Source of the DNA: Streptomyces griseus subsp. griseus
Lineage (GTDB): Bacteria; Actinomycetota; Actinomycetes; Streptomycetales; Streptomycetaceae
Assembly (NCBI RefSeq): GCF_000720255.1
Contig: NZ_JOJE01000023.1
Span: 53,162 to 117,161 of the forward strand
Direction of reading: 5' to 3'
DNA: 64,000 bases
The translations under genes and the position numbers were made by a program. The first letter of the stretch is position 1. The number at the start of each line of letters is the position of its first letter. The notes under the pieces were generated by a model, which had not been told where the DNA came from, did not search any database, and was given only the letters and a program-made list of their open reading frames with translations. Shown here one piece after another: positions 40,141 to 58,848 of the stretch.

Positions 40141-40227
40141 TCGACCGGGCTCGTCGCGCCCACCGTGACCCCGCTGGTCGACACGGCGGGCGTGCGGCAT
40201 CACCTCGTTCCCGCTCAGGGCGCGTAG
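40141..40227 (+). pseudogene. C-terminal scrap of a third copy of the TetR paralogue
   Basis: The frame reads STGLVAPTVTPLVDTAGVR, followed by 11 more codons. The tails of the two paralogues read TGLIAPTVTVLLDAAGMR and TGLVAPTVTALLDAAEVR. Only this scrap of about 20 residues is left, behind TetR number four and before rmlB, marking an old duplication or recombination end point. Confidence 0.6.
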
Positions 40228-41168
40228 CGCTCGCGGTACCAGGCGACGGTCTCGGCGAGCCCGGACAGGAAGTCGCGCTGCGGTTCGTAGCCGAGTTCCC
40301 GGCGGATCTTCGACCAGTCCACGGAGTAGCGGAGGTCGTGGCCTTTACGGTCGGCGACCCAGTCCACCCGGTCCCATCCGGCGCCGCAGGCCTCGAGCAG
40401 GGCGCCGGTCAGTTCCTTGTTGGTCAGTTCCGTACCGCCCCCGATGTTGTACGTCTCGCCCGGCCGGCCCCGGGTGAGGACCGCGATGAGACCGCGGCAG
40501 TGATCGTCGACATGGAGCCAGTCCCGGACGTTCTCACCGTCGCCGTACAGCGGCACGTTCTCGCCGCGCAGCAGTCGAGTGACGAAGCGCGGGATCAGCT
40601 TCTCCGGGAACTGGTAGGGGCCGTAGTTGTTGGAGCAGCGGGTGACGCGCACGTCGAGGCCGTGGGTGCGGTGGCAGGCGAGAGCCAGCAGGTCACTGGA
40701 TGCCTTGGACGCGGAGTAGGCCGAACTGGGCAGCAGGGGGTCCCGCTCGGTCGCGCTGCCGAACGGCACGGAACCGTACACCTCGTCCGTCGAAACGTGT
40801 ACGAAGGGCTGCGTGCCGTGCCGCAGCGCGGCGTCCAGCAGGGTCTGTGTGCCCAGCACATTGGTGTGGACGAAAGGGGCGGCGGCGGTGATGGAGCGGT
40901 CCACGTGGGACTCGGCCGCCAAGTGGACCACGGCGTCGTGCTCGGCCATCAGCCGGTCGACCACCACCGCGTCGGTGATGTCTCCGTGCACGAAACGGAA
41001 TCCCGGATGATGCCGCACGGTGTCCAGATTGTCCAGGTTTCCGGCGTAGGTCAGGCTGTCCAGTACGGTCACGTGCACGGCACCGAGCGGCCGGTCCGGT
41101 GCGAGCACCGTGCGGACCAAGTGCGAACCGATGAAACCGGCACCGCCGGTGACCAGGATTCTCCTCAT
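40215..41168 (-). CDS. rmlB: dTDP-glucose 4,6-dehydratase RmlB
   Basis: Converts dTDP-glucose to dTDP-4-keto-6-deoxyglucose, the branch point of deoxysugar synthesis. A 317-aa extended SDR: NAD motif TGGAGFIGSHLVR at the N-terminus, HLAAESHVDRSI, STDEVYGSV with the active-site Asp/Glu pair and YSASKASSDLL with Tyr-x3-Lys, then NNYGPYQFPEKLIP. ATG 41168 overlaps the rmlA stop by four bases (ATGA). It is the last gene of the rmlD-rmlC-rmlA-rmlB operon. Confidence 0.95.
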   Translation of the reverse strand: MRRILVTGGAGFIGSHLVRTVLAPDRPLGAVHVTVLDSLTYAGNLDNLDTVRHHPGFRFVHGDITDAVVVDRLMAEHDAVVHLAAESHVDRSITAAAPFVHTNVLGTQTLLDAALRHGTQPFVHVSTDEVYGSVPFGSATERDPLLPSSAYSASKASSDLLALACHRTHGLDVRVTRCSNNYGPYQFPEKLIPRFVTRLLRGENVPLYGDGENVRDWLHVDDHCRGLIAVLTRGRPGETYNIGGGTELTNKELTGALLEACGAGWDRVDWVADRKGHDLRYSVDWSKIRRELGYEPQRDFLSGLAETVAWYRERYAP

Positions 41169-42232
41169 GACGGGATCTGCACCTTGCTGTGGTCACCGAG
41201 CAGCAGCCGGTGGGCGTGCGGGGCGCGGGTGGTGGGCACGATCTCCACGTTGCGGCCGATCACCGACGCCTCGATGCGGCGTACTCCATCGATGATCGCA
41301 CCGGGCAGCACAATGGAGTACTCGATCTCACTGCCGGAGATCGAGCAGTTCTCCGCGATGGAGGTGAAGGGCCCGACGTACGAACCGGTGACAGTGGTCC
41401 CGGGTCCGATCACTGCCGGTCCCACCACGCGCGAGCCGCGGACCGTGGCGCCCTCGGCGATGACGACCCGGCCGACGATCTCGCTGTGCGCGTCGACCGC
41501 ACCGTCGCAGCGGGACGCGATCCGGTCCAGTACCAACCGGTTCACCTCCAGCATGTCCATGGCGTTCCCGGTGTCCTTCCAGTAGCCGGACACGATGGAG
41601 GACCGGACATCGGCGCCGTCCTCGATGAGCCGTTGGAGGGCGTCGGTGATCTCCAGCTCGCCTCGCGCGGACGGCCGGATGGCGGCCACCGCCTCGTGTA
41701 TCGCCGGGGAGAAGAAGTACACGCCGACCAGAGCGAGATCGCTCTTGGGAGAGTCGGGCTTCTCCTCAAGCGCGGTCACCCGGCCGGCCTCGTCCAGGGT
41801 CGCCACCCCGAACGCGCGAGGATCGGCCACCTGGGCGAGCATGATCTGCGCATCCGGCCGGGAGGCCCGGAACTGCCGTGCCTGCTCCGCGATCCCGCCG
41901 AGCAGGAAGTTGTCACCGAGGTACATGACGAAGTCGTCGGAGCCGAGCCAGGGACGGGCTGTGGCCACGGCGTGCGCCAGGCCCAGGGGCCGGTCCTGAC
42001 GGATGTAGGTGACGTCCAGGCCCCATCGCGATCCGTCCCCGACCGCGGCGCGTATCTCCTGCTCGGTGTCCCCGACGATGACGCACACCTCGGTCACCTC
42101 TGCCTCGGCGATCCCTTCCAAGGCGTAGAACAGGACAGGTTGGTTGGCCACGGGCACCAGCTGTTTGGCTGACGTGTGGGTCAGGGGACGCATCCTGGTT
42201 CCGGAGCCTCCGGAGAGGACGAGCGCCTTCAC
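41165..42232 (-). CDS. rmlA: Glucose-1-phosphate thymidylyltransferase RmlA
   Basis: Makes dTDP-glucose from dTTP and glucose 1-phosphate. 355 aa, the long actinobacterial form: an N-terminal nucleotidyltransferase with LSGGSGTRMRPLTHTSAKQL and YLGDNFLLGG, and a C-terminal left-handed beta-helix of hexapeptide repeats from about residue 250 (VVIAEGATVRGSRVVGPAVI). The GTG start at 42232 overlaps the rmlC stop (GTGA), so I prefer it to the longer frame. Both flanking junctions are four-base overlaps. Confidence 0.94.
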   Translation of the reverse strand: MKALVLSGGSGTRMRPLTHTSAKQLVPVANQPVLFYALEGIAEAEVTEVCVIVGDTEQEIRAAVGDGSRWGLDVTYIRQDRPLGLAHAVATARPWLGSDDFVMYLGDNFLLGGIAEQARQFRASRPDAQIMLAQVADPRAFGVATLDEAGRVTALEEKPDSPKSDLALVGVYFFSPAIHEAVAAIRPSARGELEITDALQRLIEDGADVRSSIVSGYWKDTGNAMDMLEVNRLVLDRIASRCDGAVDAHSEIVGRVVIAEGATVRGSRVVGPAVIGPGTTVTGSYVGPFTSIAENCSISGSEIEYSIVLPGAIIDGVRRIEASVIGRNVEIVPTTRAPHAHRLLLGDHSKVQIPS

Positions 42233-42852
42233 GAGGACTCCTCGGGGTCGGTCTGGAGAGGGCGCACCGTGCCGGTCCGGACGGTGACGCACGTGTCGTA
42301 GGCGGGCAGCAGCCCGGCCGCCTCGGCGGCGGCGAGGCCGGGGGCCGCGGCGTCCTTCGCGGACAGTACCGGCGGGATGTCACTGTCCCAGGCGATGCCC
42401 AGACGCGGGTCGAAGGGATCCACGGCGTGTTCGCGGGAGGCGTCGTAGCCGGACGTGGTGAGGTAAACCAGCGTCGCGTCGTCCGTCAGCGCCTGGAAGC
42501 CGTGCCCCAGTCCTTCGGAGAGGAAGACCGCGCGCCGGTTGTCCGCGTCCAGCTGGACCGCGTCCCACACGCCGAAGCTCGGCGATCCGGTGCGCAGGTC
42601 CACCACGACGTCACGCACCGCACCGCGCACACACGTCACGTACTTGGCCTGCCCGGGTGGCACGTCGGCGAAGTGGATGCCCCGCACCACACCACGCCGC
42701 GACACCGAGCAGTTGGCCTGGGCCAGGTGGAAGGGGCGTCCTACGGCGGTGCGCACCTCCTCGCCCCGGAACCATTCGTGGAAGGAACCCCGGTGGTCGG
42801 TGAACGACGGGGGATCGGTCACCCAGGCGCCGGGCACCTTCAGCGGCCTCAT
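42229..42852 (-). CDS. rmlC: dTDP-4-dehydrorhamnose 3,5-epimerase family protein RmlC
   Basis: Epimerises dTDP-4-keto-6-deoxyglucose on the way to dTDP-4-keto-L-rhamnose. 207 aa, slightly longer than the usual 180-200. The cupin fold shows FTDHRGSFHEWF, QANCSVSRRGVVRGIHF with the catalytic His, and LSEGLGHGFQAL. ATG 42852 overlaps the rmlD stop (ATGA). Some family members are 5- or 3-epimerases only; with RmlA, B and D adjacent, rhamnose is the simplest reading. Confidence 0.92.
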   Translation of the reverse strand: MRPLKVPGAWVTDPPSFTDHRGSFHEWFRGEEVRTAVGRPFHLAQANCSVSRRGVVRGIHFADVPPGQAKYVTCVRGAVRDVVVDLRTGSPSFGVWDAVQLDADNRRAVFLSEGLGHGFQALTDDATLVYLTTSGYDASREHAVDPFDPRLGIAWDSDIPPVLSAKDAAAPGLAAAEAAGLLPAYDTCVTVRTGTVRPLQTDPEESS

Positions 42853-43751
42853 GCGGCTTCCTCCTGCCGCCCCGGCCCGCACGCTTCGGCCAGCGCGGTG
42901 CGCCAATCCCGCGGAGCGGACAGCCCGGCCTCGGTCCAGCGGCGGTGACCCAGGACGCTCCAGTACGGTCGCCGAGCGGGACGCTGCATCCGAGAACCGT
43001 CGGTCGGCCGGACCCGGTCCGGGTCGGCGCCCCGCAGCCGGAACACCTCCCGAGCCAGTTCGTACCGGCTGGCGCTGCCTGCGTTCGTGGCGTGGAAGAC
43101 GCCGCTTACCGCGCGGGCGGGCAGGTCGGCCAGAGCGATCAGCCGCGCAGCCACGTCCACGGCGTTCGACGGCTGGCCGTACTGGTCGCGCACCACGTCC
43201 ACGGTGCCGTCGCACCGGGCCGCGCGGGCCATGGCCCCGACGAATCCGTCCAGGTCCCGGCCGTACAGCCAGGCGGTTCGCACCACGGTGGCGGCATCCG
43301 GCAGTTCCCGGAGCACCGCGCGCTCGCCGGCGCGCTTCGTGCGGCCGTAGGCCGTGCCCGGCGCGGTGGGCGTGTCCTCGGAGTACGGGGTCCCGAAGTC
43401 CGCCAGGGCGCCGGGGAAGACGTAGTCGGTGGACACGTGCAGCAGCCGGGCACCCTGGGCGGCGCAGCTCCGAGCGAGATGACGCGCACCGTCGGCGTTG
43501 ACTCGCCGCGCCTCCTCCTCGTGGGACTCCGCCGCGTCCACGTCCGTCCACGCGGCGCAGTTGACCACGATGTCAGGGCGCCAGTGCCGCAGGGTCTCGT
43601 CGACGGCCCGGGCGTCGGTGACGTCCAGGCGGTCCCGGCCGAGTGGCACGCACTCCGTGCCCTGAGCGGTCAACTGGGTGTGCACTTCGCGTCCGAGCCG
43701 CCCACCGGCGCCGGCGATGAGCCATCGGCCTTCCGGTACCGGGGAATTCAT
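42849..43751 (-). CDS. rmlD: dTDP-4-dehydrorhamnose reductase RmlD
   Basis: Reduces dTDP-4-keto-L-rhamnose to dTDP-L-rhamnose. A 300-aa SDR-type enzyme: GAGGRLGREVHTQL near the N-terminus, VVNCAAWTDVDAAE, HVSTDYVFPG, YGRTKRAGE with the Tyr and Lys, and RTAWLYG. The start is probably ATG 43751; a GTG at 43772 adds seven residues. It is the first gene of the four-gene operon. The C-terminus matches the family (RPYWSVLGHRRW). Confidence 0.93.
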   Translation of the reverse strand: MNSPVPEGRWLIAGAGGRLGREVHTQLTAQGTECVPLGRDRLDVTDARAVDETLRHWRPDIVVNCAAWTDVDAAESHEEEARRVNADGARHLARSCAAQGARLLHVSTDYVFPGALADFGTPYSEDTPTAPGTAYGRTKRAGERAVLRELPDAATVVRTAWLYGRDLDGFVGAMARAARCDGTVDVVRDQYGQPSNAVDVAARLIALADLPARAVSGVFHATNAGSASRYELAREVFRLRGADPDRVRPTDGSRMQRPARRPYWSVLGHRRWTEAGLSAPRDWRTALAEACGPGRQEEAA

Positions 43752-44054
43752 GAGGCCGTCTTTACTCAACACGCGGTGATGTTAGCCCGGAGTGCGACTG
43801 CTCCGTGCACCAGTTCGGGGCGTACTCCGTCCGAGCCCGGCATTTAAGCCCCAGGCTCACCCGGAAAGGGACATCAGCTCACGAACCACCCTCCGACCGG
43901 AAGGCGAATTACAAATACGGCTTATCGGTGGATCGGGCGGGAAGCAGAATTGCCGCACAATTGGCCACCGGCCCGGCCCGATCACCGACTTCGCCGACGC
44001 GTGTATGGAACCCCAGCTTCCTGTTGCCCGTCTCTCTCTCGAGAGGGGGATCCC
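43752..44054. other. Divergent promoter region between rmlD and the GPP34 gene
   Basis: About 300 nt with locally raised AT content around 43905-43960 (ACAAATACGGCTTATCGG, AATTGCCGCACAATTGGCC). No gene is supported. It should hold the promoters of the rml operon (minus) and the GPP34 gene (plus), but I could not assign clear -35/-10 pairs. Confidence 0.4.
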
Positions 44055-44699
44055 ATGACTGAGGATCTGACGATCGGCGAGCGGATTGTGCTGCTCGCAC
44101 TGGACGAAGAGACCGGCACCCTGCGCGAAGCGCCGCTGCGGGTGTCTCTGGCGGTTTCGGCGGCCGCCTTACTGGAGCTGGGCACGGCCGGGTACCTGAC
44201 CGAGCGTGACGGCGCACTGGTCGTCGCCGGCGCGTCGACGCCGGCGGATCCGGCGGCCGCGGCCATGGCGGCGCACCTGCGCAGCCATCCCGAGGAGACG
44301 CCCAGGGAGTGGCTGCTGGCCGTGCGCGAGCAGGCACTTGACACGGCGTACAAGGGGCTGTCGGAGAAGGGACTGGTGCGGGAGCAGGGACGACGGGTCC
44401 TGGGCGCCTTCGGATCGGTGAAGTACCCGGTCACGGGCCTGTCGGAGCTCGAGGCGCTGCGAGGCCGGCTGACAGCCGTCCTGGAGGGCCAGGAACCCGA
44501 TGAGCGCACGGCGGCGCTGATCACCGTGCTGCACCACGCGGGCCTCCAGGCCGTCATGCTGCGGGACTCCGGGGCGGAGGCACCCGAGTACCGTCTGAGC
44601 GCGATCGCCGAGGGGCAAGGCACGGCCGCGGCACTCGGAGACGCGATCCGCACCACGGTCGCCGCTCTCACCGCGGTCATCGCCTCGTCCGCTCTGTAG
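44055..44699 (+). CDS. GPP34-family protein with a TTA codon
   Basis: 214 aa from ATG 44055 behind AGGGGGA. The sequence follows the GPP34/Golgi phosphoprotein 3 family: LTIGERIVLLALDEETG at the N-terminus, LLELGTAGYLTERDGALVV, then helical bundle segments. Eukaryotic members bind phosphoinositides at Golgi membranes and control glycosyltransferases; the bacterial role is unknown. Residue 39 is encoded by TTA (44169-44171), the rare codon read by the bldA tRNA in Streptomyces. It lies between the rml operon and the cluster regulator and is followed by a double hairpin. A link to glycosylation is tempting but unproven. Confidence 0.8.
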   Translation: MTEDLTIGERIVLLALDEETGTLREAPLRVSLAVSAAALLELGTAGYLTERDGALVVAGASTPADPAAAAMAAHLRSHPEETPREWLLAVREQALDTAYKGLSEKGLVREQGRRVLGAFGSVKYPVTGLSELEALRGRLTAVLEGQEPDERTAALITVLHHAGLQAVMLRDSGAEAPEYRLSAIAEGQGTAAALGDAIRTTVAALTAVIASSAL

Positions 44700-44702
44700 G
44701 AA

Positions 44703-44745
44703 GGCGCCTCCCGAGGCGCCGGCGGACCCGCCGGCCGGGTCCGCC
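44703..44745 (+). terminator. Tandem hairpins after the GPP34 gene
   Basis: Two adjacent stems: GGCGCCTC/GAGGCGCC (8 bp, 44703-44720) and GGCGGACCCG/CGGGTCCGCC (10 bp, 44721-44745). Together they separate the GPP34 gene from the regulator's promoter. Confidence 0.75.
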
Positions 44746-44779
44746 CGCCGGGCGACTATTCGCTCATTCGCTTGAATAT

Positions 44780-44815
44780 TTGACAGTTCTACGAACTGAT
44801 GTTCGAATAAGGGCC
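44780..44815 (+). promoter_or_regulatory. Promoter of the cluster regulator, leaderless, with inverted repeats
   Basis: TTGACA (44780-44785), a 17-nt spacer, then TCGAAT (44803-44808). The ATG at 44816 starts 8 nt after the -10, so the transcript probably begins at or near the start codon. The spacer contains AGTTC-TAC-GAACT (44785-44797), an operator-like dyad, and TTCGAA overlaps the -10. Confidence 0.65.
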
Positions 44816-45784
44816 ATGGGGGAAATGACCTTGACCGCTTTGGGCATGCTGAGTTTCGACGAATTGGTGTACAAGGCCCTTTTACAAGGAACAGAGTCGG
44901 ACGTATCCGGCCTGTGTGTGGCCCTCGACCGTAACGACGAGGACATCCGCGCCTCTCTGCGAAGACTCGCCAAGCAGGGCATGATCCGCTTGGATAAACA
45001 CGGCGAGCCGACCGCCCTCGACCCCGACGAGAGTGTCGGACGACTTCTGGAACAGCGACTCAAAAGGCTGCACGCGGAGCAGCAGGAAGTACTGTCGTTC
45101 GGTTACTCACTGATCAGCCGGCCTCTTGCCTGGCGTTCTCCCGGAGCGCTTCAGGGGAACGACAAGGGCGTGTGCGACCGGGCCGAGGAGTTCACCGCCC
45201 AGGCCCGGCGTGAAGTGCTGACGATGCAGCCGAACTGGACCCTGACACCACAGACGATCCTGGCCACGCGTCGGGCCGGGGTGGCCTGCCTGCGACGTGG
45301 AGTGACCGTCAAGGCCCTGATCCACAAACGGGCCCTGGAGGACGAGGCCACCTCCACACTCCTCACGGAGATGATCCGGCACGGCGCGCAGGTACGCCTC
45401 CTGGACGGAGGGTTCGAGCGGGTACTGATCGTCGACCGGGAGACCGCCCTCGTGCAGGCCGAGCGGGGCAGCTCACCGAGCACGACGCTGGTGGAGCAGG
45501 GAGCGCTGGTCGACACCCTCCTGTCGTTCTTCGACCGGTGCTGGTCCCAGGCGCTCGACGCCGCGGCCCTGCTGTCGCCGGGGAATGGCCCCGCCCCACT
45601 GAACGAGATGCAGCTGAAGGTGCTCCAAGCCATGGCGCGCGCCGACAAGGACGAGGTCGCAGCACGTGAACTGGGCATATCCGTACGCACCTACCGGGGG
45701 CGGGTCGCGGAGCTGCTGAAGCACCTCCACGCCGCCACCCGCTTCCAGGCGGCGCTACGGGCCAAGGAGAAGGGCCTCATCTGA
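44816..45784 (+). CDS. LuxR-type regulator with TrmB-like N-terminus and a TTA codon (likely cluster regulator)
   Basis: 322 aa from ATG 44816. The N-terminal 75 residues resemble a TrmB-type winged helix (ALDRNDEDIRASLRRLAKQG). The middle is a sugar-kinase/PLD-like sensing region (LTPQTILATRRAGVACLRRG then VTVKALIHKR), and the C-terminus is a LuxR-type helix-turn-helix (VAARELGISVRTYRGRVAEL). Regulators of this layout are common next to lanthipeptide and other RiPP clusters. Residue 23 is a TTA codon (44882-44884), so translation may need the bldA tRNA. The gene converges with the biosynthetic operon; its 3' end overlaps that of the glycosyltransferase by 30 nt. Confidence 0.85.
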   Translation: MGEMTLTALGMLSFDELVYKALLQGTESDVSGLCVALDRNDEDIRASLRRLAKQGMIRLDKHGEPTALDPDESVGRLLEQRLKRLHAEQQEVLSFGYSLISRPLAWRSPGALQGNDKGVCDRAEEFTAQARREVLTMQPNWTLTPQTILATRRAGVACLRRGVTVKALIHKRALEDEATSTLLTEMIRHGAQVRLLDGGFERVLIVDRETALVQAERGSSPSTTLVEQGALVDTLLSFFDRCWSQALDAAALLSPGNGPAPLNEMQLKVLQAMARADKDEVAARELGISVRTYRGRVAELLKHLHAATRFQAALRAKEKGLI

Positions 45785-46837
45785 CCGGTGCGGCCGCCCG
45801 GGCCCGCCCTCGGCCAGGCTCCTGACGAGCCGGAGCACACGCGGCTGGACGGAGGGCACCAGCCGGGCGGCGCGGCGGGCGTGCTCGATGCGGGAACAGA
45901 GCAGGTTCCGCGCGATGGCGTACCGCCCCTGCTCGGGCACCAACACGAGCTCCTCGAAGAGCTTCACCTCTCCCGAGACCACGCGTTCGATCTCCTCGTC
46001 AAGGTCCCCGCTCCAGTCGAGGGGCCGTACCAGCGCGCCGGAGTCGTCCATCTGCCGGTACCAGTCCCTCATGTCCGCCAGGACGGCGGCGCGGAACAAC
46101 TCGTCGTGCCGGCCGGCCTGGAGTTCGCACAGCAGCGCGTGGGCGGTTCTCGCGTCATCGAGGACGACCAGGGGCAGCCGGTGGGGGCGCGGCATCCGGT
46201 TCCTCCGGGTGCCGCTGTCCATCAGCAGGGCCGCGGTCGGTTCCACGACGGTGCGAAACGTATGGCCCGCGTCGGCGACCCGCAGCCACAGATCCCAGTC
46301 CTCCAGGCCCGCACCACCGCGCCAGCCGCCGACCCGCTCCACGACACCGCGACGATGGCCCACCCTCGACGGCTCGAACATCGGTCCGAGCAATTGAAGT
46401 TGGGGGTGCCAGAAGGCCGACAGCGGCGAGAACTCGGCGGCCTCCTCGCCGTCGGCGTCGTGGTACGTGCAGCCCGTCACCGCGAGGTCCGCGTCCGCCC
46501 GCAGCATGCCGAGCAGGACACGAAGGTGATCGGGCCGCCAGACGTCGTCATGGTCCAGATAGGCGATGAACTCGCCCCGGGCAAGGGCCAGTCCCTCGTT
46601 GCGCGGCCCGCTGGGGTGGCCGCTCCGCTCGATGCGGTGGAGCCGGACGCGAGGATCCTGCCGCGCGGAGCGGCGCACCCAGTCCTCGGTGTCGTCGTCG
46701 CACCCGTCCGAGACCACGAGCAGTTCCCACTCCTGGAGGGTCTGCGCGCGGACGGAGTCGATGGTCTCCGTGATCTTCCGTGACCTGTTGTAGGTCGGAC
46801 AGATCACGGACACCGCCACTGTGTCGTCGCCGTTCAT
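45755..46837 (-). CDS. Family 2 glycosyltransferase
   Basis: 360 aa from ATG 46837. The GT-A domain is clear: VSVICPTYNRSRKITETIDS at the N-terminus, a conserved VVSDGCDDDTEDWV acid region, LARGEFIAYLDHDDVWRPDH with the metal-binding DHD in place of DxD, and LEDWDLWLRVADAGH with the ED catalytic motif. It is the last gene of the RiPP operon, 31 nt after the LanKC stop. No membrane segment is obvious, so it is probably cytoplasmic and modifies a soluble acceptor. With dTDP-rhamnose genes next to the operon, the peptide is a reasonable acceptor; this is inference. Confidence 0.85.
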   Translation of the reverse strand: MNGDDTVAVSVICPTYNRSRKITETIDSVRAQTLQEWELLVVSDGCDDDTEDWVRRSARQDPRVRLHRIERSGHPSGPRNEGLALARGEFIAYLDHDDVWRPDHLRVLLGMLRADADLAVTGCTYHDADGEEAAEFSPLSAFWHPQLQLLGPMFEPSRVGHRRGVVERVGGWRGGAGLEDWDLWLRVADAGHTFRTVVEPTAALLMDSGTRRNRMPRPHRLPLVVLDDARTAHALLCELQAGRHDELFRAAVLADMRDWYRQMDDSGALVRPLDWSGDLDEEIERVVSGEVKLFEELVLVPEQGRYAIARNLLCSRIEHARRAARLVPSVQPRVLRLVRSLAEGGPGRPHRSDEALLLGP

Positions 46838-51139: not shown

Positions 51140-51876
51140 GGCAGGTCCCTGCGGAGGAACAGGGTCCGGGTGGCGATCGTGCCCGCGCCGATCCACACCG
51201 CGAGGACCACCAGGGCCCACGGGATCGACAGCAGATGGTCATTGCCGCCCCGGTACACGGACGCCATGGCCTCGTCGATGGTGAACCTGCCGATCTCCGG
51301 GATCAGCCGCAGCAGCCCCTCCCCGACCAGCCAGGTGCTGATCAGCAGGACGAGAATGGCGGCGACCTGCTGCCGGATCAGCAGCCCGAGCAGGGCACCC
51401 CACACGGCGCCCACCACGATGACCAGCATCACCCCGAGCAGCGTCCAGGTGGTGGTAGCCGTCCACTCGGGCTCCTGCGCGCGCCCGGCCAGGAACACCC
51501 ACGGGCTGGCGGCGGCCAGCACACCGGCCCCCAGCGCGAACACCGAGCCGCAGCCGGCGACGGCGATCAGCTTGGCCGCGAACAGCCGTCCTCTGCCACC
51601 GCTCAGCAGAACCGACCGGCTGATGGCGCCGTTTCCGAACTCCCTGGTCACCGCGAGCATGGCGACCACCGCGGCGGCGAGTTCGACCATGAACCAGCCC
51701 TGCACCAGGGTGGATGTGATCTCGCGGGTGCTGCCGAGCTCCGGAGTCCTGGCGAGCTCCTGCTGCAGGAAGCCGGCGTCGGCCATCACACACATCAGCA
51801 CCGCGGCGGCGGCCACGCCCCACCAGGCACGCCCGGTCCAGATCTTGCGCCACTCGGCTCCGATCAGGTCACGCAT
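51136..51876 (-). CDS. ABC-2-type transporter permease
   Basis: 246 aa from ATG 51876, with an 8-nt overlap with the ATPase gene. About six membrane segments (residues 20-40, 60-80, 105-130, 145-170, 175-195, 220-240). The N-terminal RDLIGAEWRKIWTGRAWW is typical of ABC-2 permeases. With the ATPase it should form an exporter for the mature peptide or an immunity pump. Confidence 0.82.
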   Translation of the reverse strand: MRDLIGAEWRKIWTGRAWWGVAAAAVLMCVMADAGFLQQELARTPELGSTREITSTLVQGWFMVELAAAVVAMLAVTREFGNGAISRSVLLSGGRGRLFAAKLIAVAGCGSVFALGAGVLAAASPWVFLAGRAQEPEWTATTTWTLLGVMLVIVVGAVWGALLGLLIRQQVAAILVLLISTWLVGEGLLRLIPEIGRFTIDEAMASVYRGGNDHLLSIPWALVVLAVWIGAGTIATRTLFLRRDLP

Positions 51877-52597
51877 GAGCGTTCTCCTTCGCCGCGGGCC
51901 CCACCAGGTCGAAGAAGCGGCTCTCCAGGCTGACGTCGCCGTTCTGCGTGAGGTCGGCGGCCGTGCCGCTGTAGCGCAGCGTCTTCTGCAGGATGACGAT
52001 GTCGTCGGCCATCTGCTCGACCTCCGCCAGGATGTGGCTGGAGACCAGCACGGTGCGCCCTTCATCCGCGAGGGACCGCAGGAGCTCCCGGAGCCAGCGG
52101 ATGCCGTCGGGGTCGAGTCCATTGGCGGGTTCGTCCAGGATGAGCAGTTCGGGGTCGGCGAGCAACGCGGTCGCCAGGGCGTGCCGCTGCCGCATGCCCT
52201 GCGAGTAGTCGCGGAGCCTGCGGTGGGCGTCCTCGGCGAGCCCCACCTGTTCGAGGACGTCGTCCACCCTCGTACGAGGCAGACCGATGGTCTTCGCCCA
52301 GATCCCCAGGTCGGCTCGTCCGGAGGCCGCGCCGGACGGACCGATTCCGTCGATGCTGACTCCCACCCGGTGCGCCGCGCGGGGCAGTTGTGCGTACGGA
52401 TGACCGAAGATCGTGGCGCGGCCCGAGGTCGGACGCGCGAGACCCAGCAGCATCCGCAAGGTCGTCGTCTTTCCGGCCCCGTTGCGTCCGAGGAGTCCCA
52501 CGACCCGACCCGACCGGACGGTGAAGGACACGTCCTCGACCGCGGTCAGTTCGCCGTAGCGCTTCGTGAGTCCCGTGATGTCGACGATGTCGGTCAC
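51869..52597 (-). CDS. ABC transporter ATP-binding protein
   Basis: 242 aa from GTG 52597, overlapping the upstream stop (GTGA). Walker A is GRNGAGKTT (residues 37-45), the signature is YSQGMRQRH, Walker B is LLILDEPANGLDP and the switch His is in VLVSSHIL. This is the antibiotic-export/immunity type (DRA/CcmA-like) common in RiPP clusters. It pairs with the ABC-2 permease downstream. Confidence 0.93.
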   Translation of the reverse strand: MTDIVDITGLTKRYGELTAVEDVSFTVRSGRVVGLLGRNGAGKTTTLRMLLGLARPTSGRATIFGHPYAQLPRAAHRVGVSIDGIGPSGAASGRADLGIWAKTIGLPRTRVDDVLEQVGLAEDAHRRLRDYSQGMRQRHALATALLADPELLILDEPANGLDPDGIRWLRELLRSLADEGRTVLVSSHILAEVEQMADDIVILQKTLRYSGTAADLTQNGDVSLESRFFDLVGPAAKENAHA

Positions 52598-52797
52598 GCT
52601 CCGCCCCTCCCCCTCGCACGGAGGTACAGGCCGACACAGACGATGAGCGCCAACTCCACCCCGATGCAGATAAGCAGCCCTCTGGTGCGGGCCGGGCCCT
52701 GAGTGATGGCGTACACCACGCCTGGGGCGGCCACGGCAGCGACGAGCCCGAAGGTCATGAGGGACCAGACCAGGCCGCGAGAAGATGCTTGAGGCAT
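52594..52797 (-). CDS. Small two-helix membrane protein of the cluster
   Basis: 67 aa from ATG 52797. Two membrane segments: residues 10-30 (WSLMTFGLVAAVAAPGVVYA) and 42-58 (LLICIGVELALIVCVGLYL). A GGGGAG lies 11 nt upstream. The stop overlaps the ATPase start. Its place as the first gene after the precursor hairpin, joined to the transporter genes, suggests an accessory transport or immunity role. No family is recognised. Confidence 0.7.
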   Translation of the reverse strand: MPQASSRGLVWSLMTFGLVAAVAAPGVVYAITQGPARTRGLLICIGVELALIVCVGLYLRARGRGGA

Positions 52798-52911: not shown

Positions 52912-53088
52912 TCAGGTCGCGATGACAGAGGTGACGGCGACAGTGCTGTAGGCAGCGCTGACGCCGGCCGAGATGGCGGCGCTTGCGAGGAAGCTGTCCC
53001 ACCAGTCAGGGGCCTCCATGCCCTCCAGCTCCTCCATGGCCAGCTCCTGCATGGCCAGCTCGAGAGCGGGGTTGGTGTTCTCGTTCAT
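52912..53088 (-). CDS. Daptide-type RiPP precursor peptide 1
   Basis: 58 aa from ATG 53088, with a near-perfect AAGGAGGTGA site. The leader is acidic and helical (LELAMQELAMEELEGMEAPD). The predicted core (about residues 27-58) starts APDWWDSF, is rich in Ala, Ser and Val, has no Cys, and ends TSVIAT. A C-terminal Thr is the hallmark residue of daptides, where it becomes a dimethylated diamine. Six Ser and four Thr lie in the core. The longer frame starting at TTG 53106 would swallow the ribosome binding site, so I rejected it. Confidence 0.85.
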   Translation of the reverse strand: MNENTNPALELAMQELAMEELEGMEAPDWWDSFLASAAISAGVSAAYSTVAVTSVIAT

Positions 53089-53165: not shown

Positions 53166-53369
53166 TCAGGTAGCCAGCGTGACGATCGAGACGTAGGAGA
53201 TGACGCCTCCTGCGCTCAGGCCACCGACGGCGCTCAGCGCCGCACTCCAGCTGAAGTCCGGAGCGTCGAGCGCCTCCAGCTCCTGCATGTCCAGCTGCTG
53301 GGCCTCCAGCTCCTGGAGAGCCAGCTCCAGAGGTGCGGACACGGCGCTGTTCTTGTTCGCGGTCTGCAT
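53166..53369 (-). CDS. Daptide-type RiPP precursor peptide 2
   Basis: 67 aa from ATG 53369, behind GGGAGGGGGGAAA. The leader (LELALQELEAQQLDMQELEA, then LDAPD) resembles that of peptide 1 but is longer by one helical repeat. The core runs from about APDFSWSA to IVTLAT at the C-terminus; it has no Cys, six Ser and two Thr, and ends in Ala-Thr like peptide 1. The conserved leader and end with a divergent middle are typical of paired RiPP precursors. It lies 92 nt after the dehydrogenase stop, with a small hairpin between. Confidence 0.85.
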   Translation of the reverse strand: MQTANKNSAVSAPLELALQELEAQQLDMQELEALDAPDFSWSAALSAVGGLSAGGVISYVSIVTLAT

Positions 53370-53403
53370 TGTGTTTCCCCCCTCCCGTGGTGTTGCGGGC
53401 CGT

Positions 53404-53423
53404 CCGTCGGCGGACGCCGACGG
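53404..53423 (-). terminator. Small hairpin before the precursor genes
   Basis: An 8-bp perfect stem CCGTCGGC/GCCGACGG with a GGAC loop, 38 nt after the dehydrogenase stop. It may reduce read-through or stabilise the 5' end of a precursor transcript. Confidence 0.4.
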
Positions 53424-53461
53424 AAGTCTGTGGTGTGTGATGGCGCCCTCTCGGTACGCCG

Positions 53462-54673
53462 TCACCGTGCCGCGGGCTCCGGCTGCCGGACAGCCTCGGC
53501 CATCACCCGCCGGACGTCGGCGAGAGCGAGGGCACCCAAGGTGGGCAGGCCGTCACCCCACGCCCGCATCGTGGACCGGGCGATCCGGTCCGTCCGCTCC
53601 GTGGTCGCGTCGATGTCGCGCTCGATCCCCCAGGCGTCCAGCAGGCCCACGACACCCTCGACCGGGTCCGTGGGCAGCGCCGGCCGGTGGACCTGGGCGA
53701 CGGCCTCCCAGAGCCGCCGTAGCCGAGGGGCGGAACCCCACCGGACGTCGCCTTCCACGACCCGCTGCCACAGGGGTGGCAGCACCGCGGCCGCAGCCGT
53801 CATCTTGCGCAGGCCCAGACCGGTGGAGAGCTCGTTGGCCAGGTACCAGCCCTTGCAGGCACACGGGTCGCGGCCCAGATTGAACCACTGGCTGTGGCTC
53901 ACACCGCTGAGCTTGGCGATCTCCAGGCGCAGCCGGTCGCCAGGGGCTTCGCCTGCCCGCCGGACGGACGCCAGCTCGGCGCCCAGAACGACCAGTCGCT
54001 CGACGAGCGTCAAGGCGAAGGCGTCCTCCGAGGGGAGGTCCTGCGGATCCCCCACGTACATACCGGCCACCCGGAAGAACACCTCGAGGACGCCTTCCGC
54101 GAGGAGTTCCACGGGCAAGGTCCGGGTGGCGACAGGGTCGAGCACCGCCACATCCGGCTGCAGCCCGTTACCGAGCACCAGGCGTTTGCCCTGCGGGCCG
54201 GCGAGGCAGGCGCCGCCGCTCAGCTCACTGCCGGTGCCCACCGTGGTCGGCACGGTGATCAAGGGGATCCTGGGTTCCGCCTCGGCCGGGAGCAGCACCA
54301 GACCGCTGCGCTGCCGCACCGCCAGCCTGTCCCGCACCACGGGGGCCGCGCTCATCAGCACGGCCAACTTGGCCTGGTCGAGCAGTGTTCCCCCGCCGAC
54401 CGCCAGGACGAGTTCGCTGTCGCGGAGCCGCTCGGCCAGTGCCGTCACGCTCTCCAGCGTGCCGGAGCCGTTCAGTACCAGCGGCTCCACCGACCGTCCC
54501 GCCCACGCCGCGCACGCGGACACCTGGTCCACGGCCTCCGAGTCGGCGACAGCCGGGTCCGCGAGCAGGGTCATGGTCCGTCCCCCGTGGAGGGGCAGCC
54601 ACTTGGCCAGTCCACTGATCCCGTAGGACACCTGGGTGAGGCGTCGACCGCTCAGGTTCCACACCGTGTCCAC
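53462..54673 (-). CDS. Daptide-type dehydrogenase (iron-containing alcohol dehydrogenase fold)
   Basis: 403 aa from GTG 54673, directly abutting the aminotransferase stop. The N-terminal NAD(P) domain has LVLAVGGGTLLDQAK and PTTVGTGSELSG, the Fe-ADH signature. In the C-terminal domain the usual HG of the metal site is replaced (GLGLRKMTAAAAVLPPL) and only one early His is kept (GVSHSQW), so the metal site looks degenerate. In daptide synthesis a dehydrogenase of this family oxidises the C-terminal Thr, leading to loss of CO2 and an aminoketone-type intermediate. It sits between the aminotransferase and the precursors. Confidence 0.85.
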   Translation of the reverse strand: MDTVWNLSGRRLTQVSYGISGLAKWLPLHGGRTMTLLADPAVADSEAVDQVSACAAWAGRSVEPLVLNGSGTLESVTALAERLRDSELVLAVGGGTLLDQAKLAVLMSAAPVVRDRLAVRQRSGLVLLPAEAEPRIPLITVPTTVGTGSELSGGACLAGPQGKRLVLGNGLQPDVAVLDPVATRTLPVELLAEGVLEVFFRVAGMYVGDPQDLPSEDAFALTLVERLVVLGAELASVRRAGEAPGDRLRLEIAKLSGVSHSQWFNLGRDPCACKGWYLANELSTGLGLRKMTAAAAVLPPLWQRVVEGDVRWGSAPRLRRLWEAVAQVHRPALPTDPVEGVVGLLDAWGIERDIDATTERTDRIARSTMRAWGDGLPTLGALALADVRRVMAEAVRQPEPAAR

Positions 54674-55954
54674 TCAGACCGCCCCGGCCGCACTGCCGAG
54701 CCCGGCCCGGTCCCGGGCGTGTGTCCTCACCCCGAGGCGCACGCAGTCCAGGAGTTCGGTGAGTTCGTCGTCGGTGTAGATCAGCGCCGGGAGGATCTGC
54801 ACCCCGTTGACGCTGGGGTGGACCACCGCTCCGGCCTTGCGAATCGCGGCGACGACCTCCGGGACCTCCCGCTGCGGCAGGGGGTCTCCCTCGGGCGTGC
54901 GCAGCCGGATGGACCGGAAGCAGCCGACGCCGGTGGTGGTCGAGACCAGCGATTCGGTGGCGACCAGGTCCTCCAGCGCCTTGTCCAGAAGGGCTGACAG
55001 GCGTCGCGCCGAGGCGACCGCGTCCAGCCGTCGCATCTCCTCCACCGTGGCGAGGATCGCCGCGCAGGTGACGGGCGTCCCGGCCTGGGTCTCCCCGTGG
55101 ACGAACACGTCACCCGCCGCGTCGAAGGGTTCGGCGAGCGCCTGGGGCATCAGCACGGCCGCCGCGGCGTGCGTGCCGTTGGTCAGCCCCTTCGACGTGA
55201 TCAGCAGATCCGGTGGCGCCGGCCACCGCTGTGAGGCGAAGAAGTCACCGGTGCGGCCGAAGCCCGTGGCGACCTCGTCGGCGACGAGGAGGAAGCCGTG
55301 CCGGTCCCGGAGTTCGAGCAGCGTCCGCACGTACTCGGGCGTGAGGGGCACCGCCCCGCTGCCGAGCACGGGTTCCACCACCACCGCCGCGACCCGGCTT
55401 CCCTGCTGGGCCGCCAACTGGGCTATCTCGTCACCGGCGTTGGGGGTCACATGCCTGACGAGCCGCTGGTCGACGCCGTAGACGGACTGGCCGAGGTTCT
55501 CGCCGGTGAGCGCGAACCCGCCGAACGTCAGCCCGTGGTAGCTGTCGCGGAGGCCCACCACGAGCTTGCGCGTACCGTCGCCGCGCAGCGCGTGGTAATG
55601 CCTGGCCAGCTTCATCACCAGGTCGTTGGCGGCACCTCCGGAGGTCGAGAAGACCACCCGGCCGTAGTGATCCGCCCCTGCCGCTTCGACCAGCGCCCGC
55701 GCCGCACGCCTGGCGTAGACGTTCTCGTAGCGGAACACCGACAGATAGGAGGCGTCGCGCAAGGCGTCCGCACAGGCCCGGGCGATCGCCTCGTTGCCGT
55801 AGCCGAGGTTCGCGTTCCACAGGCCGCTGGCGCCGCAGAGCAGTTCGCGGCCGTCCTGGAAGCGGATCCTGACGCCGTCCGCCGACACGGCGCACAGTTC
55901 GTCGGCTCCGTGCAGGCGGGGTTCGAGCAGCGAGGGCCAGAGTTCGGTGGACAT
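54674..55954 (-). CDS. Daptide-type class III aminotransferase
   Basis: 426 aa from ATG 55954, overlapping the methyltransferase stop by one base (TGATG). Class III PLP fold: FSTSGGAANDLVMKLARHYH, RDSYHGLTFGG, VVVEPVLGSGAVPLTPEYV, LVADEVATGFGRTG and LLITSKGLTNG, with the PLP Lys in SKG. In daptides this enzyme puts an amino group on the C-terminal ketone. The next gene on the strand is the dehydrogenase and the preceding one the methyltransferase, the standard daptide set. Confidence 0.9.
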   Translation of the reverse strand: MSTELWPSLLEPRLHGADELCAVSADGVRIRFQDGRELLCGASGLWNANLGYGNEAIARACADALRDASYLSVFRYENVYARRAARALVEAAGADHYGRVVFSTSGGAANDLVMKLARHYHALRGDGTRKLVVGLRDSYHGLTFGGFALTGENLGQSVYGVDQRLVRHVTPNAGDEIAQLAAQQGSRVAAVVVEPVLGSGAVPLTPEYVRTLLELRDRHGFLLVADEVATGFGRTGDFFASQRWPAPPDLLITSKGLTNGTHAAAAVLMPQALAEPFDAAGDVFVHGETQAGTPVTCAAILATVEEMRRLDAVASARRLSALLDKALEDLVATESLVSTTTGVGCFRSIRLRTPEGDPLPQREVPEVVAAIRKAGAVVHPSVNGVQILPALIYTDDELTELLDCVRLGVRTHARDRAGLGSAAGAV

Positions 55955-56763
55955 CAGACGGCCTCCGCCTCGAGCAGCACACCGGTATGGCGGGGGGAGG
56001 CGGCGGGCAGCGGATGACGAGCCACGACGCGCAGTCCCGCGGAAGCCAGTTCCCGCGCGAGGTCGTCGGGGGGCAGGACCCGGATGGACGTGGTGAGCGC
56101 CAGTACCGGTCCGTCCTGCGGCGTTTCCCGCTCGGCCGGCAGGATGGTGACCTTGCGGACCTCTTGGCCGGCCCGCCAGTGTTCGATCATCCGGTAGCGC
56201 CGGCCGCTGGCACCCACGGCCTCGAGGTCCAGGTCGTCCTCGTCGGCGCCGGTCACGTCGACGGTGGAGAACAAGAACCTTCCGCCGGGCCTGAGATGGG
56301 TCCGCACAGCCGCGTAGAGTCCGGCCCTGCCCTCGGCGTCGAGAAGTGAGATGGATGTGGTGCCGAGCACCACGACGGCGAAGGTGCTGCCGAGCTCGAA
56401 CGCGGACATGTCGCCCCGCACCACGGTGCACCGTCCCCCGATGCCCGCCGGGGCCTCGGTGAGCCGCTCCTGGAGCAGCGTCACCATGCTCTCCTTGAGC
56501 TCCAGGGCCGTGACCTCCCGGCCCAGCGCGAGCAGCGGCAGCGTCAGCCGGCCGGATCCGGCGGCGAGTTCCAGCACCGGGCCGGGAACGGCACGGACGG
56601 ACCGCAGCAGTTCCCTGATCTCGGTGGTGTCGATGGCCGCCAGGTCGTGGTAGACCGAAGCACCCGCCTCGTCGTACAGATCGTGCACGCTGACCCGGTC
56701 CCCGTACCCGGCCAGGATCCGCCCGGCCAGCCCCGGGGCCGCCGCGGCTTGCGTCGTCGTCAC
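55954..56763 (-). CDS. Daptide-type SAM-dependent methyltransferase
   Basis: 269 aa from GTG 56763, overlapping the upstream stop (GTGA). Class I Rossmann methyltransferase: ELAAGSGRLTLPLLALG is motif I, VTALELKESMVTLLQERL the acidic second strand and VVVLGTTSISLLDAEGR a later motif. In daptides it adds two methyl groups to the new terminal amine. The C-terminus (PRHTGVLLEAEAV) has no unusual features. Confidence 0.88.
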   Translation of the reverse strand: MTTTQAAAAPGLAGRILAGYGDRVSVHDLYDEAGASVYHDLAAIDTTEIRELLRSVRAVPGPVLELAAGSGRLTLPLLALGREVTALELKESMVTLLQERLTEAPAGIGGRCTVVRGDMSAFELGSTFAVVVLGTTSISLLDAEGRAGLYAAVRTHLRPGGRFLFSTVDVTGADEDDLDLEAVGASGRRYRMIEHWRAGQEVRKVTILPAERETPQDGPVLALTTSIRVLPPDDLARELASAGLRVVARHPLPAASPRHTGVLLEAEAV

Positions 56764-57875
56764 GCGGTCGCCTCCAGCACGGGGGCGCCCGGAAGCAGCG
56801 GGACTCCCTTGTCGGCGAAGAACGCGAGTACCCACTCGACCGCGGCCCGGTCCACCGATCCGCCCTCCGCGTTCACGGCGTTCCGTTCCGCGTGCTCCAG
56901 CACGGCTTCGGCGCTGCCGAGGACCAGCAGCATCTCCGTGATCGCCGCCGCTCGTCGGCCGAGCTGGAAGGTCCGGTCGAGAGCCGGAACCCTGACGTAC
57001 GCCTTCTCCGACGTCCAGCAGAGGAACGGCGCCTGCGGATCATGGGCGTCCAGGGCGCCGTCGACCGCCTCGAGCCCGGGCACGAGCCGGTGGCCGAAGC
57101 CCGAGACCCTGGGCTCCGTGATCCCACGCGTCTGAAGGTCGCGCAGCACGTCCAGCGTGGTCAGATAGCGGGCGAGCCAGGGCCGTCGGCTCAGGGCGGG
57201 GCCGCGCACCTCCTCCGACACCGCCGCTCCGAGCGGCACCGCGCCACCCACGTCGCTTGCCGCGTTCAGGCGCTGCCATTCCGCGTGCAGGGCCGCGGCC
57301 GAATCCCCGGCGGTCCCCAGCCGCAGGCCCTGCGGCGAGACGGAGACACCCCCGTCCCGGTCCACGTAGAGCCTGGTGCCCGGTCCGTCACCCGGAACAT
57401 GACCTCCGAGTGCGGAAAGGTCGGCGATCTGTACGGCCGGGCTGACCGCGAACGGAGCGAACCTGCCCTCTGCCCTGGCGGCGTCGGCGTCCGCGAGGAA
57501 CATCTCGAAGTCCGTGTCGCCGGCCATCCGCACGAGCGTCGTGCCGAGCAGCGACATGTAAGGGCTGACGCCGTAGTCCTGGATCTGGAGGAACAGAGCG
57601 TCATCGACCGACGCGTCGCCCTCCGACCCGCTCAGCGATCCCTCGTACCCCACGACGGTGGCACCGGACCCGCCGTCCTGGCCGTCCCGTGCGCCCGGCA
57701 CGAGGACCAGCGTCCGCGGGCCCACGGCATCGGAGCCGAGCACCGCGTCCAGAAAGGCCGAGTCCTCCAGCACAACGGTGGCGGCCTCCGGCCCCGGCGT
57801 GTCACCGACCGGCGGGCGTCCGGTGACCCAGGAGCGCAGATGGCGCCCCACCCGGGCGATCAGTTCCTCATTCAC
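56760..57875 (-). CDS. Daptide biosynthesis recognition-type protein
   Basis: 371 aa from GTG 57875, with GGAGGGA upstream; it overlaps the reductase gene by 8 nt. No enzyme motif is visible. The middle is beta-rich (ATVVGYEGSLSGSEGD, GTRLYVDRDGGVSVSPQGLR), and the C-terminal 120 residues end in a winged-helix-like stretch (FQLGRRAAAITEMLLVLGSA). Daptide clusters always carry a RiPP recognition protein next to the methyltransferase, and position and size match that role. The assignment rests on context more than on motifs. Confidence 0.65.
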   Translation of the reverse strand: MNEELIARVGRHLRSWVTGRPPVGDTPGPEAATVVLEDSAFLDAVLGSDAVGPRTLVLVPGARDGQDGGSGATVVGYEGSLSGSEGDASVDDALFLQIQDYGVSPYMSLLGTTLVRMAGDTDFEMFLADADAARAEGRFAPFAVSPAVQIADLSALGGHVPGDGPGTRLYVDRDGGVSVSPQGLRLGTAGDSAAALHAEWQRLNAASDVGGAVPLGAAVSEEVRGPALSRRPWLARYLTTLDVLRDLQTRGITEPRVSGFGHRLVPGLEAVDGALDAHDPQAPFLCWTSEKAYVRVPALDRTFQLGRRAAAITEMLLVLGSAEAVLEHAERNAVNAEGGSVDRAAVEWVLAFFADKGVPLLPGAPVLEATA

Positions 57876-58848
57876 CGGAGTCCCTCCGATCCGCGCCGAC
57901 CGCGGCGAGAATCTGCTTCAAGTCGTCCATTGCGGCATTCACGCCGTGGAGTCGGCATACGCCCGTGAGATTCAGCACGATTTCATCGACCCCGGCGTCA
58001 CGATACTCATCGAGACGCTTGACGATCTGATCGATGTTTCCATACAGGAATGCACCGGAATCCGCCATGAGCCGTGCAGCCGCTCGCTGGTCGAGCTCGG
58101 AGAAATCAATTCCTGCCTTTCCGAGCATGTCAAGGTAATGCGGCGCCTGCATATGGGCGGAATTGCTCGCCAGCACGAAATCGGAGACATCCCGATCGGA
58201 GCGCTCCAGGGCCACAGGCACCATCGCGGTGATCCGGGGCACGGGCCGACCCGCGATGTCCGCCCCCTCCCGCATCGCGGGACGGACGACACCGTCGAGG
58301 TAGGCCGCCGGCGTGAGCCAGGTGACCGCCACATCGGCGACCTCGCCCGCGAGACGGGCCATGCCGGGGCGCAGCACTCCGAGTCCGAGGCGCACGGGAG
58401 GCGACATGGCCGGGCCCATCCCCGCGTGGCAGGAGTAGTACTCGCCGTCGAAGTCGACCGGGTCGCCGCTGAGCAGCCCTCGAACCACCGTCATGTATTC
58501 ACGGACCGCCGTGAGCTGGCTGCGGTACGGGGCGCCGAGCAGGCTCTGCTGGAACGTTTTCGCGCCCGGCCCGAAGCCGGCCACCACGTCGTTGCCCGTC
58601 GCCATCGCCAGGGTCTTGACCTTGTGAGCCGCCTCGAACGGATGCCGCAGCGGCATCAGGGTCACCCCGAGCCCGGTCGGCACCCGGAAGCCCGCGCCCG
58701 CCACCGCGGAAAACGTCTGGAAGGGTTCCATCAGCAGGCTTTGTCCCTGCCAGAGCCTGGCCGCCCCCGTCCATTCGACGAGCGCCGCGAACGGAAGAAC
58801 CTGCTCTGGTCGGCGCGGCAGGAATGGCACCAATATCGAGTAGTCCAC
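57868..58848 (-). CDS. LLM-class F420-type oxidoreductase (candidate dehydroalanine reductase)
   Basis: 326 aa from GTG 58848 behind GGGGGGAA. A luciferase-like TIM barrel: DYSILVPFLPRRPEQVLPFA at the N-terminus, VPTGLGVTLMPLRHPFEAA, VVAGFGPGAKTFQQSLLG, then VREYMTVVRGLLSGDPVDFD. F420-dependent members of this class (LanJC type) reduce dehydroalanine in lanthipeptides to D-alanine. It is the first gene of the operon that also encodes LanKC, so that role fits well. Other LLM reactions, such as hydroxylation, cannot be excluded. Confidence 0.78.
   Translation of the reverse strand: MDYSILVPFLPRRPEQVLPFAALVEWTGAARLWQGQSLLMEPFQTFSAVAGAGFRVPTGLGVTLMPLRHPFEAAHKVKTLAMATGNDVVAGFGPGAKTFQQSLLGAPYRSQLTAVREYMTVVRGLLSGDPVDFDGEYYSCHAGMGPAMSPPVRLGLGVLRPGMARLAGEVADVAVTWLTPAAYLDGVVRPAMREGADIAGRPVPRITAMVPVALERSDRDVSDFVLASNSAHMQAPHYLDMLGKAGIDFSELDQRAAARLMADSGAFLYGNIDQIVKRLDEYRDAGVDEIVLNLTGVCRLHGVNAAMDDLKQILAAVGADRRDSGE

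Follow-up and report, generated by a model that had tools for sequence, protein, structure and literature searches.

Association of a glycosyltransferase with core tyrosine and deoxysugar genes in LanKC-type daptide clusters suggests a glycosylated variant in Streptomyces griseus

We analyzed a 64,000-nucleotide stretch of the Streptomyces griseus subsp. griseus genome (assembly GCF_000720255.1, contig NZ_JOJE01000023.1, positions 53,162 to 117,161 of the forward strand), hereafter the window; coordinates given without a locus handle are positions in it. Between 45755 and 58848 it carries a complete and real cluster of the already published LanKC/LanJC kind for a daptide, a ribosomally synthesized and post-translationally modified peptide (RiPP). 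What appears new is the association, across related clusters, of a family 2 glycosyltransferase (GT2), tyrosine in the precursor core and deoxysugar genes, which suggests a glycosylated daptide variant. Together, the GT2 gene, the neighboring RmlABCD set and the mid-core tyrosine point to O-deoxyhexosylation of tyrosine. We therefore favor, at slightly better than even chances, a LanKC/LanJC-type daptide on whose mid-core tyrosine GT2 places a TDP-6-deoxyhexose made by RmlABCD, most likely L-rhamnose. The evidence for a sugar is stronger than that available to the original prediction, which was made from the sequence of the window alone. Glycosyltransferases and nucleotidyltransferases in daptide clusters had already been mentioned by Ren et al. 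2023 (PMC10036551; like the other papers cited, drawn on here in excerpt). Our search of open-licence papers, without their supplementary files, turned up no report of glycosylation in a daptide, and the association of GT2 with core tyrosine was not found in print among open-licence papers.

Core tyrosine, GT2 and deoxysugar genes

Both precursors of the window carry a mid-core tyrosine. Precursor A1 (53166..53369, minus strand; NF041808, daptide_123, 30.8 bits with a cut-off of 25) has the core DFSWSAALSAVGGLSAGGVISYVSIVTLAT with Tyr22, and A2 (52912..53088, minus strand; 24.2 bits, 0.8 bit under the same cut-off) has the core DWWDSFLASAAISAGVSAAYSTVAVTSVIAT with Tyr20. Among 50 LanKC clusters, tyrosine occurred in one or more cores of 22/22 clusters with GT2 and of 2/28 without it, a match of core tyrosine to glycosyltransferase expected of a tyrosine-O-glycosylated RiPP and confounded here by ancestry and core length. 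Tyrosine alone among the 20 amino acids was present in every GT2-positive and nearly absent from GT2-negative LanKC clusters; the next-best residue was aspartate (12/22 vs 0/28). Counted over distinct cores, tyrosine was found in 40/44 from GT2-positive and 2/52 from GT2-negative clusters, and 40 of the 50 tyrosines in GT2-positive cores lay at core positions 20-24. The wider set of 61 clusters could be divided by the time at which the idea was recorded: those fetched before had tyrosine in 17/17 GT2-positive and 0/12 GT2-negative clusters, and those fetched after, which include four GT2-positive clusters without LanKC, in 9/9 and 5/23 (Fisher test, 7.1e-5). Because hand reading favored GT2-positive loci (those of G354 and G780 had initially been picked out manually, and one G183 core was restored later), a uniform looser precursor finder was applied to the whole set of 61 clusters; without hand picking it returned the same counts, 26/26 vs 5/35. 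Two genomes, G083 (C1, C2) and G376 (C510, C37), each hold two daptide clusters, one with GT2 and core tyrosine and the other with neither.

Relatives were gathered around DapD or DapB matches, via GT2 matches and from plasmid records. The DapD model scored over its cut-off in 26/392 genomes of the genus and the DapB model in 17/394 genomes of the class and 22/394 of the family, these three draws being overlapping. Two genomes of the class draw with sub-cut-off matches only were omitted, and the second G1021 locus, from the family draw, is DapB only. The GT2-based search contributed the 8 strongest of 30 loci (7 daptide loci and L042). Records annotated with mpaD contributed 3/7, the omitted ones being G083b's own record, two near copies of a record that was included (S. 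virginiae) and one from Actinomyces oris. Five GT2-positive loci (AcH505, Cryo, MicroACRRU, Misio and Mutabilis) were found via GT2 and not via a daptide marker. Nine of 70 DapD loci were left out of the counts: MBT53 and Rimosus (which duplicate the genomes of G183 and G048), G938 (contig stops after LanKC), G147 and G495 (fragments), G071, G217 and G386 (DapD-like matches only) and G452 (in which a precursor was not found). After these removals 61 clusters were counted, 50 of them with LanKC. Flank length differs between loci, so that absence of rml genes is throughout absence within the flanking sequence read.

At least two rml genes were found within 30 kb of DapD in 12/22 GT2-positive and 0/28 GT2-negative LanKC clusters. 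They follow GT2 in five clusters (G125, G018, G083a, G048, G376b), lie upstream of the gene for a luciferase-like monooxygenase (LLM) family enzyme in two (G364, G185), are split on both sides in four (G152, G646, G1047, G1049) and stand beyond two genes in the window. In the window all four are on the minus strand: RmlD, dTDP-4-dehydrorhamnose reductase (42849..43751; TIGR01214, 266 bits, cut-off 224), an RmlC-like epimerase (42229..42852; TIGR01221, 148.6 bits, equivalog cut-off 155.75), RmlA of the long type (open reading frame 41165..42292, real start nearer 42232; TIGR01208, 440 bits, cut-off 320) and RmlB, dTDP-glucose 4,6-dehydratase (40215..41168; TIGR01181, 418 bits, cut-off 365). The cluster is thus accompanied by both a glycosyltransferase and genes for an activated sugar, as expected of a tyrosine-O-glycosylated RiPP. 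The claim of a complete rmlDCAB set held for RmlA, RmlB and RmlD; since RmlC falls 7 bits under its equivalog cut-off, a full set is likely and L-rhamnose not certain. The RmlA of the window is the only one above the rmlA_long cut-off in its own genome. Ten GT2-positive LanKC clusters had no adjacent rml set; in five of these examined genome-wide, rmlABCD was found elsewhere in four, and rmlA and rmlD in the fifth (G645). The remaining five are the Microbacterium, Cryobacterium, G860, S. misionensis and S. mutabilis clusters taken up below.

The sugar genes also vary. In cluster G152, GT2 has near it a sugar aminotransferase of the DegT type and a protein of the epimerase family. In G646 its neighbors are an aminotransferase resembling PseC, an RmlC-like protein and a protein that Pfam assigns as a C-methyltransferase; where these genes matched NCBIfam models, they scored under the cut-offs. 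Such aminotransferase and C-methyltransferase genes make a different deoxysugar likely in those sister clusters. Overall, a deoxysugar cassette often accompanies GT2, with content differing between clusters. A sugar aminotransferase (L067, 1574-2686) and a sugar C-methyltransferase (L157, 11323-12543) lie near the GT2 of sister clusters. That the rml genes are a conserved bystander locus entered by the daptide cluster was not supported: in the five relatives compared, rml loci lie elsewhere and share none of the compared genes of the window, except for SpoIIE-domain matches (35-37% identity) in two.

GT2 itself (45755..46837, minus strand; PF00535) belongs to a daptide-associated subfamily and is a predicted tyrosine O-glycosyltransferase. 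Its 17 NCBIfam matches were all below their respective cut-offs. Residues D95, H96, D97, D98, E179, D180 and W181 are kept in 26/26 aligned members of the subfamily. Four of these members come from daptide clusters that lack LanKC, and one is from a locus of Saccharopolyspora (L042) without daptide genes. L042 carries its GT2 at 9989-11035 and a gallidermin-like precursor containing tyrosine at 2972-3205, together with a gene for a MycE_N-domain protein; no daptide core genes were found in the locus.

These data bear on a simpler reading, which we consider unlikely, in which the product is an unglycosylated D-alanine (D-Ala) daptide like that of the sca cluster, and GT2 and rml serve a cell envelope glycan or another metabolite. 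It is favored by the position of rml as a separate unit behind two plus strand genes, by near relatives without rml at that place, by the PDB sequence relatives of GT2, most of them polysaccharide, lipid-linked sugar or envelope enzymes, and by the single subfamily member in L042. Against it, GT2 starts 31 bp after LanKC on the same strand and directly follows LanKC in 18/22 GT2-positive LanKC clusters (exceptions G152, G646, G1047 and G1049), no close full-length GT2 relative was found in 8 GT2-negative genomes searched, and rml genes were near none of the 28 GT2-negative clusters.

Across clusters (examined, among others, at L194, 22812-24086, and L195, 21847-23121), the slot after LanKC was occupied by GT2, by YcaO or by neither, and some clusters have both. 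This slot appears to be a position at which tailoring enzymes are exchanged. Mutual exclusion of GT2 and YcaO was rejected, YcaO being present in 5/22 GT2-positive and 11/28 GT2-negative clusters. The LanKC/YcaO cluster L195 (NZ_CP108150.1) resides on a 44 kb circular plasmid of Streptomyces virginiae, and the related daptide clusters L193 and L194 on linear plasmids.

Weighing the acceptor, the sugar and the kinase

Several observations weigh against tyrosine glycosylation with rhamnose. The LanKC tree shows only 3 changes of GT2, and the DapD tree 8. Over the well-supported independent pairs (1 and 4, respectively), tyrosine moves with GT2 in an average of 0.8 and 3.1 and never moves in the opposite direction, but the pairs are too few for the sign test to be significant. 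The association of GT2 with tyrosine is therefore confounded by shared ancestry. Similarly, GT2-positive cores are longer (median 31 vs 22), so that tyrosine may track length. G946 has a mid-core tyrosine in a genome in which no close full-length relative of GT2 was found, and further tyrosines without GT2 occur in G839 (at core position 1), G1021a, G611 and G751. These five loci break a strict rule of tyrosine if and only if GT2, which we rejected. Daptide 1 of M. paraoxydans also contains tyrosine (PMC10036551).

On the sugar side, RmlA matches in the GT2-positive Microbacterium and Cryobacterium genomes were all weaker than the rmlA_long cut-off, and finding GT2-positive genomes without a long-type RmlA lowers the odds slightly. 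No rml gene was found in an extra 20 kb searched beside the GT2-positive cluster of G860, or in the roughly 10 kb GT2-side flank of S. mutabilis, the nearest relative read (GT2 91% identical). The S. misionensis locus sequence does not reach the side on which its near relative G364 has the rml set. Moreover, rmlA_long was over its cut-off in 25/37 genomes searched, including the GT2-negative G108, G238, G226, G013, G110 and G638. The sub-threshold RmlC of the window belongs among these points, as does the kinase residue discussed below.

Part of this evidence fits a glycosylated daptide of another make, in which the sugar is attached to Trp, Asp, Ser/Thr or the N-terminus, or is a 6-deoxyhexose other than L-rhamnose. 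The RmlC score, the aminotransferase and C-methyltransferase sugar genes of sister clusters and the aspartate counts are in its favor, and the class III lanthipeptide NAI-112 has a 6-deoxyhexose on Trp (PMC8068269). On the other hand, aspartate is absent from 10/22 GT2-positive clusters, and all 50 LanKC clusters contain Trp, Ser and Thr regardless of GT2, leaving tyrosine alone to fit; as for another sugar, RmlD, RmlB and RmlA all exceed their cut-offs. We regard this variant as rather unlikely.

A different objection concerns the lyase-kinase-cyclase LanKC (46869..49424, minus strand; NF038151, 872 bits, cut-off 575). Its residue 257, matched to Lys257 of ThurKC by shared motif and numbering, without alignment to ThurKC, is Arg in place of the expected kinase beta3 Lys. 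Among 51 aligned daptide LanKCs, Arg257 occurs in that of the window and in 10 others, all GT2-positive and in one clade. In ThurKC, Lys257 is close enough to Glu279 for a hydrogen bond, and Ala mutants of these residues gave degraded peptide fragments (PMC10604976). If the kinase were inactive or altered, the product would be a daptide, glycosylated or not, that lacks D-Ala; Ser would stay Ser, leaving the LLM enzyme without a substrate. Yet Lys to Arg is a mild change, the Arg257 clade has open frames, and it carries the LLM gene in every case where the sequence extends that far. The remaining catalytic positions checked (lyase Lys66, Lys95, Lys109 and Lys118; kinase Glu279, Asp366, Asn371, Asp384 and Glu386) are invariant in 51/51, from which LanKC is predicted to be active, and we consider its loss of function quite improbable. 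The genome of the window has a second LanKC.

Gene content of the cluster and its surroundings

The daptide gene set is compact, without large gaps, and runs on the minus strand from 58848 to 45755 in the order LLM, DapB, DapM, DapD, DapC, A1, A2, small membrane-like protein, ABC ATPase, permease, DapP, LanKC and GT2. The original assignments of the Dap set, LanKC, LLM enzyme, exporter and GT2 were borne out by curated models or Pfam. DapB, the partner of the oxidative decarboxylase containing a RiPP recognition element (56760..57875; NF041823, daptide_RRE, 400 bits, cut-off 150), the N,N-dimethyltransferase DapM (55954..56763; NF041820, daptide_MTase, 322 bits, cut-off 175), the class III aminotransferase DapD (54674..55954, start inferred; NF041821, daptide_amino, 650 bits, cut-off 450), the Fe-ADH-like oxidative decarboxylase DapC (53462..54673; NF041822, daptide_DH, 495 bits, cut-off 300) and the intramembrane leader peptidase DapP (49478..51139, start inferred; NF041824, daptide_HExxH, 495 bits, cut-off 300) all exceed their NCBIfam equivalog cut-offs, as expected of an actinobacterial-type daptide cluster. 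The start of DapM was placed by its overlap with the DapB stop; its open frame extends to 56835. The ABC exporter consists of an ATPase (DapT1, 51869..52597; PF00005, with a lantibiotic protection ABC ATPase as best NCBIfam match, under cut-off) and a permease (DapT2, 51136..51876; ABC2_membrane_4, 28 bits vs 27). A small membrane-like protein (52594..52797) matched no family in Pfam or NCBIfam and is kept in near relatives, with homologues in L037, L039, L044, L070 and G645. All these genes are on the minus strand.

The F420-type reductase of the LLM family (LanJC-like, DapJ; 57868..58848, minus strand; Bac_luciferase, 3.7e-34) is predicted to convert dehydroalanine (Dha) to D-Ala. Its best NCBIfam match was TIGR03564 (131 bits, below the cut-off of 234), and the PDB entries nearest to it in sequence are F420-dependent enzymes. 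LanKC and the LLM enzyme are encoded on one strand with Ser-rich cores, 6 Ser in each, as expected of a D-Ala-forming pair. Co-occurrence, proposed earlier as a check, was examined for these two and both were detected in 47/70 loci with a DapD match, a count that includes the window and duplicates; the pair is thus common in this sample. The LLM gene went undetected in six LanKC loci, and the sequence of all six ends before its place.

Both precursors have an ELExMEAP-like leader motif and end in a C-terminal Thr (A1 ..ELEALDAP|..LAT, A2 ..ELEGMEAP|..IAT). Purine-rich, ribosome-binding-like sequences precede their ATG codons, GGGAGG in A1 and GAAGGAGGTGA in A2. Although a LanKC synthetase is present, as in class III lanthipeptides, the Cys that lanthionine or labionin would need is missing: there is none in the A1 and A2 cores and none in the cores read from 50 LanKC daptide clusters. 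Hence no lanthionine is possible, formation of lanthionine or labionin was ruled out, and the term hybrid lanthipeptide applied earlier is wrong for the product.

Two plus strand genes separate GT2 from rmlD: a helix-turn-helix (HTH) regulator convergent with GT2 (44816..45784; TrmB-like N-terminus, under the Pfam cut-off) and a GPP34-family protein (44055..44699; PF05719, 116 bits). The rmlDCAB genes (43751-40215, minus strand) are therefore a separate unit, and the span 40215-58848 is not one operon; of the earlier description, the adjacency of rmlDCAB stands and the single operon does not. Homologues of the HTH regulator are found beside many daptide clusters. It is about 33% identical to a regulator beside the LLM gene in many GT2-less daptide clusters, and in the nearest relatives of the window it adjoins GT2 rather than the LLM gene. 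A sigma-70 promoter scan gave no match, and 8 terminator-like matches were left unused. Elsewhere in the window, 15324-25655 holds two long minus strand open reading frames of 2197 and 1231 amino acids, the former without a Pfam match at 1e-10 and the latter with a Laminin_G_3 domain.

Proposed pathway and closest known systems

For the steps other than glycosylation, we infer the pathway by analogy with mpa, sca and tfDap, systems described in the literature. LanKC would phosphorylate and eliminate core Ser, perhaps also Thr, and the LLM enzyme would reduce the resulting Dha to D-Ala. DapB and DapC would oxidatively decarboxylate the C-terminal Thr, after which transamination by DapD and dimethylation by DapM would give the dimethylated diamine terminus Dmp. 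GT2 may transfer a TDP-6-deoxyhexose from the adjacent RmlABCD, most likely L-rhamnose, to Tyr22 of A1 and Tyr20 of A2. DapP would cleave behind the conserved Pro and DapT1T2 would export the product. The product as first proposed, a linear peptide that contains D-amino acids, ends in Dmp and perhaps bears rhamnose, stays the best reading. Calculated neutral monoisotopic masses for A1 are 2881.56 with Dmp, 2785.59 when all six Ser are also Ala and 2931.65 with a deoxyhexose added to that; the corresponding values for A2 are 3099.59, 3003.62 and 3149.68.

More broadly, and at chances we would place just short of even, the clusters may represent an Actinomycetes-wide lineage of glycosylated daptides. 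Such a lineage would have a dedicated GT2 subfamily, an O-deoxyhexosylated mid-core tyrosine and an exchangeable sugar cassette (rhamnose here, amino or C-methyl sugars in sisters), and its products would be membrane-active peptides with D-Ala, a mid-helix sugar and positive charge at both ends. The pairing of GT2, tyrosine and rml specifies acceptor residue, donor sugar and enzyme; if true, it would provide a family of peptide tyrosine glycosyltransferases rich in natural variants and in naturally occurring exchanges of the donor. Glycosylated bacterial RiPPs are few: besides cacaoidin, the 2021 cacaoidin paper names glycocins and NAI-112 (PMC8068269).

Among the closest known systems is the sca cluster of Streptomyces capuensis NRRL B-3501, which like the window combines the primary daptide enzymes with a LanKC/LanJC pair. 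Its analyzed product has five Ser converted to Ala, with D-Ala established by Marfey assay, and an (S)-Dmp terminus; no glycosylation of it is described in the excerpts of that paper (PMC10036551). This cluster refutes the original view that no characterized daptide joins LanKC dehydration to a D-Ala-forming reductase. The same pair is found in the tfDap cluster of Thermobifida fusca (PMC12338566 / PMC12670281), which also speaks against that novelty and which shares DapBCDMPT1T2 with the window; unlike in the window, a YcaO diverts the C-terminus to imidazoline, and the main text of the published version holds no word starting with "glyco". The hominicin / Staphylococcus pseudintermedius cluster similarly joins a daptide C-terminus to a lanthipeptide dehydratase, but is of Bacillota type and retains dehydrobutyrines, with no sugar described in the excerpts (PMC10036551). 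For the sugar, a precedent is cacaoidin, a class V lanthipeptide (lanthidin) (PMC8068269). In contrast to the product proposed here, it is not a daptide and has class V chemistry with an aminovinyl-methyl-cysteine (AviMeCys) C-terminus. However, it bears D-amino acids and a tyrosine O-glycoside with alpha-L-rhamnose, and its cluster, like the window, has rml genes (rmlA/B/D), GT2 and an F420-type reductase, with two GT2s, Cao8 and Cao16, whose assignment is the proposal of its authors.

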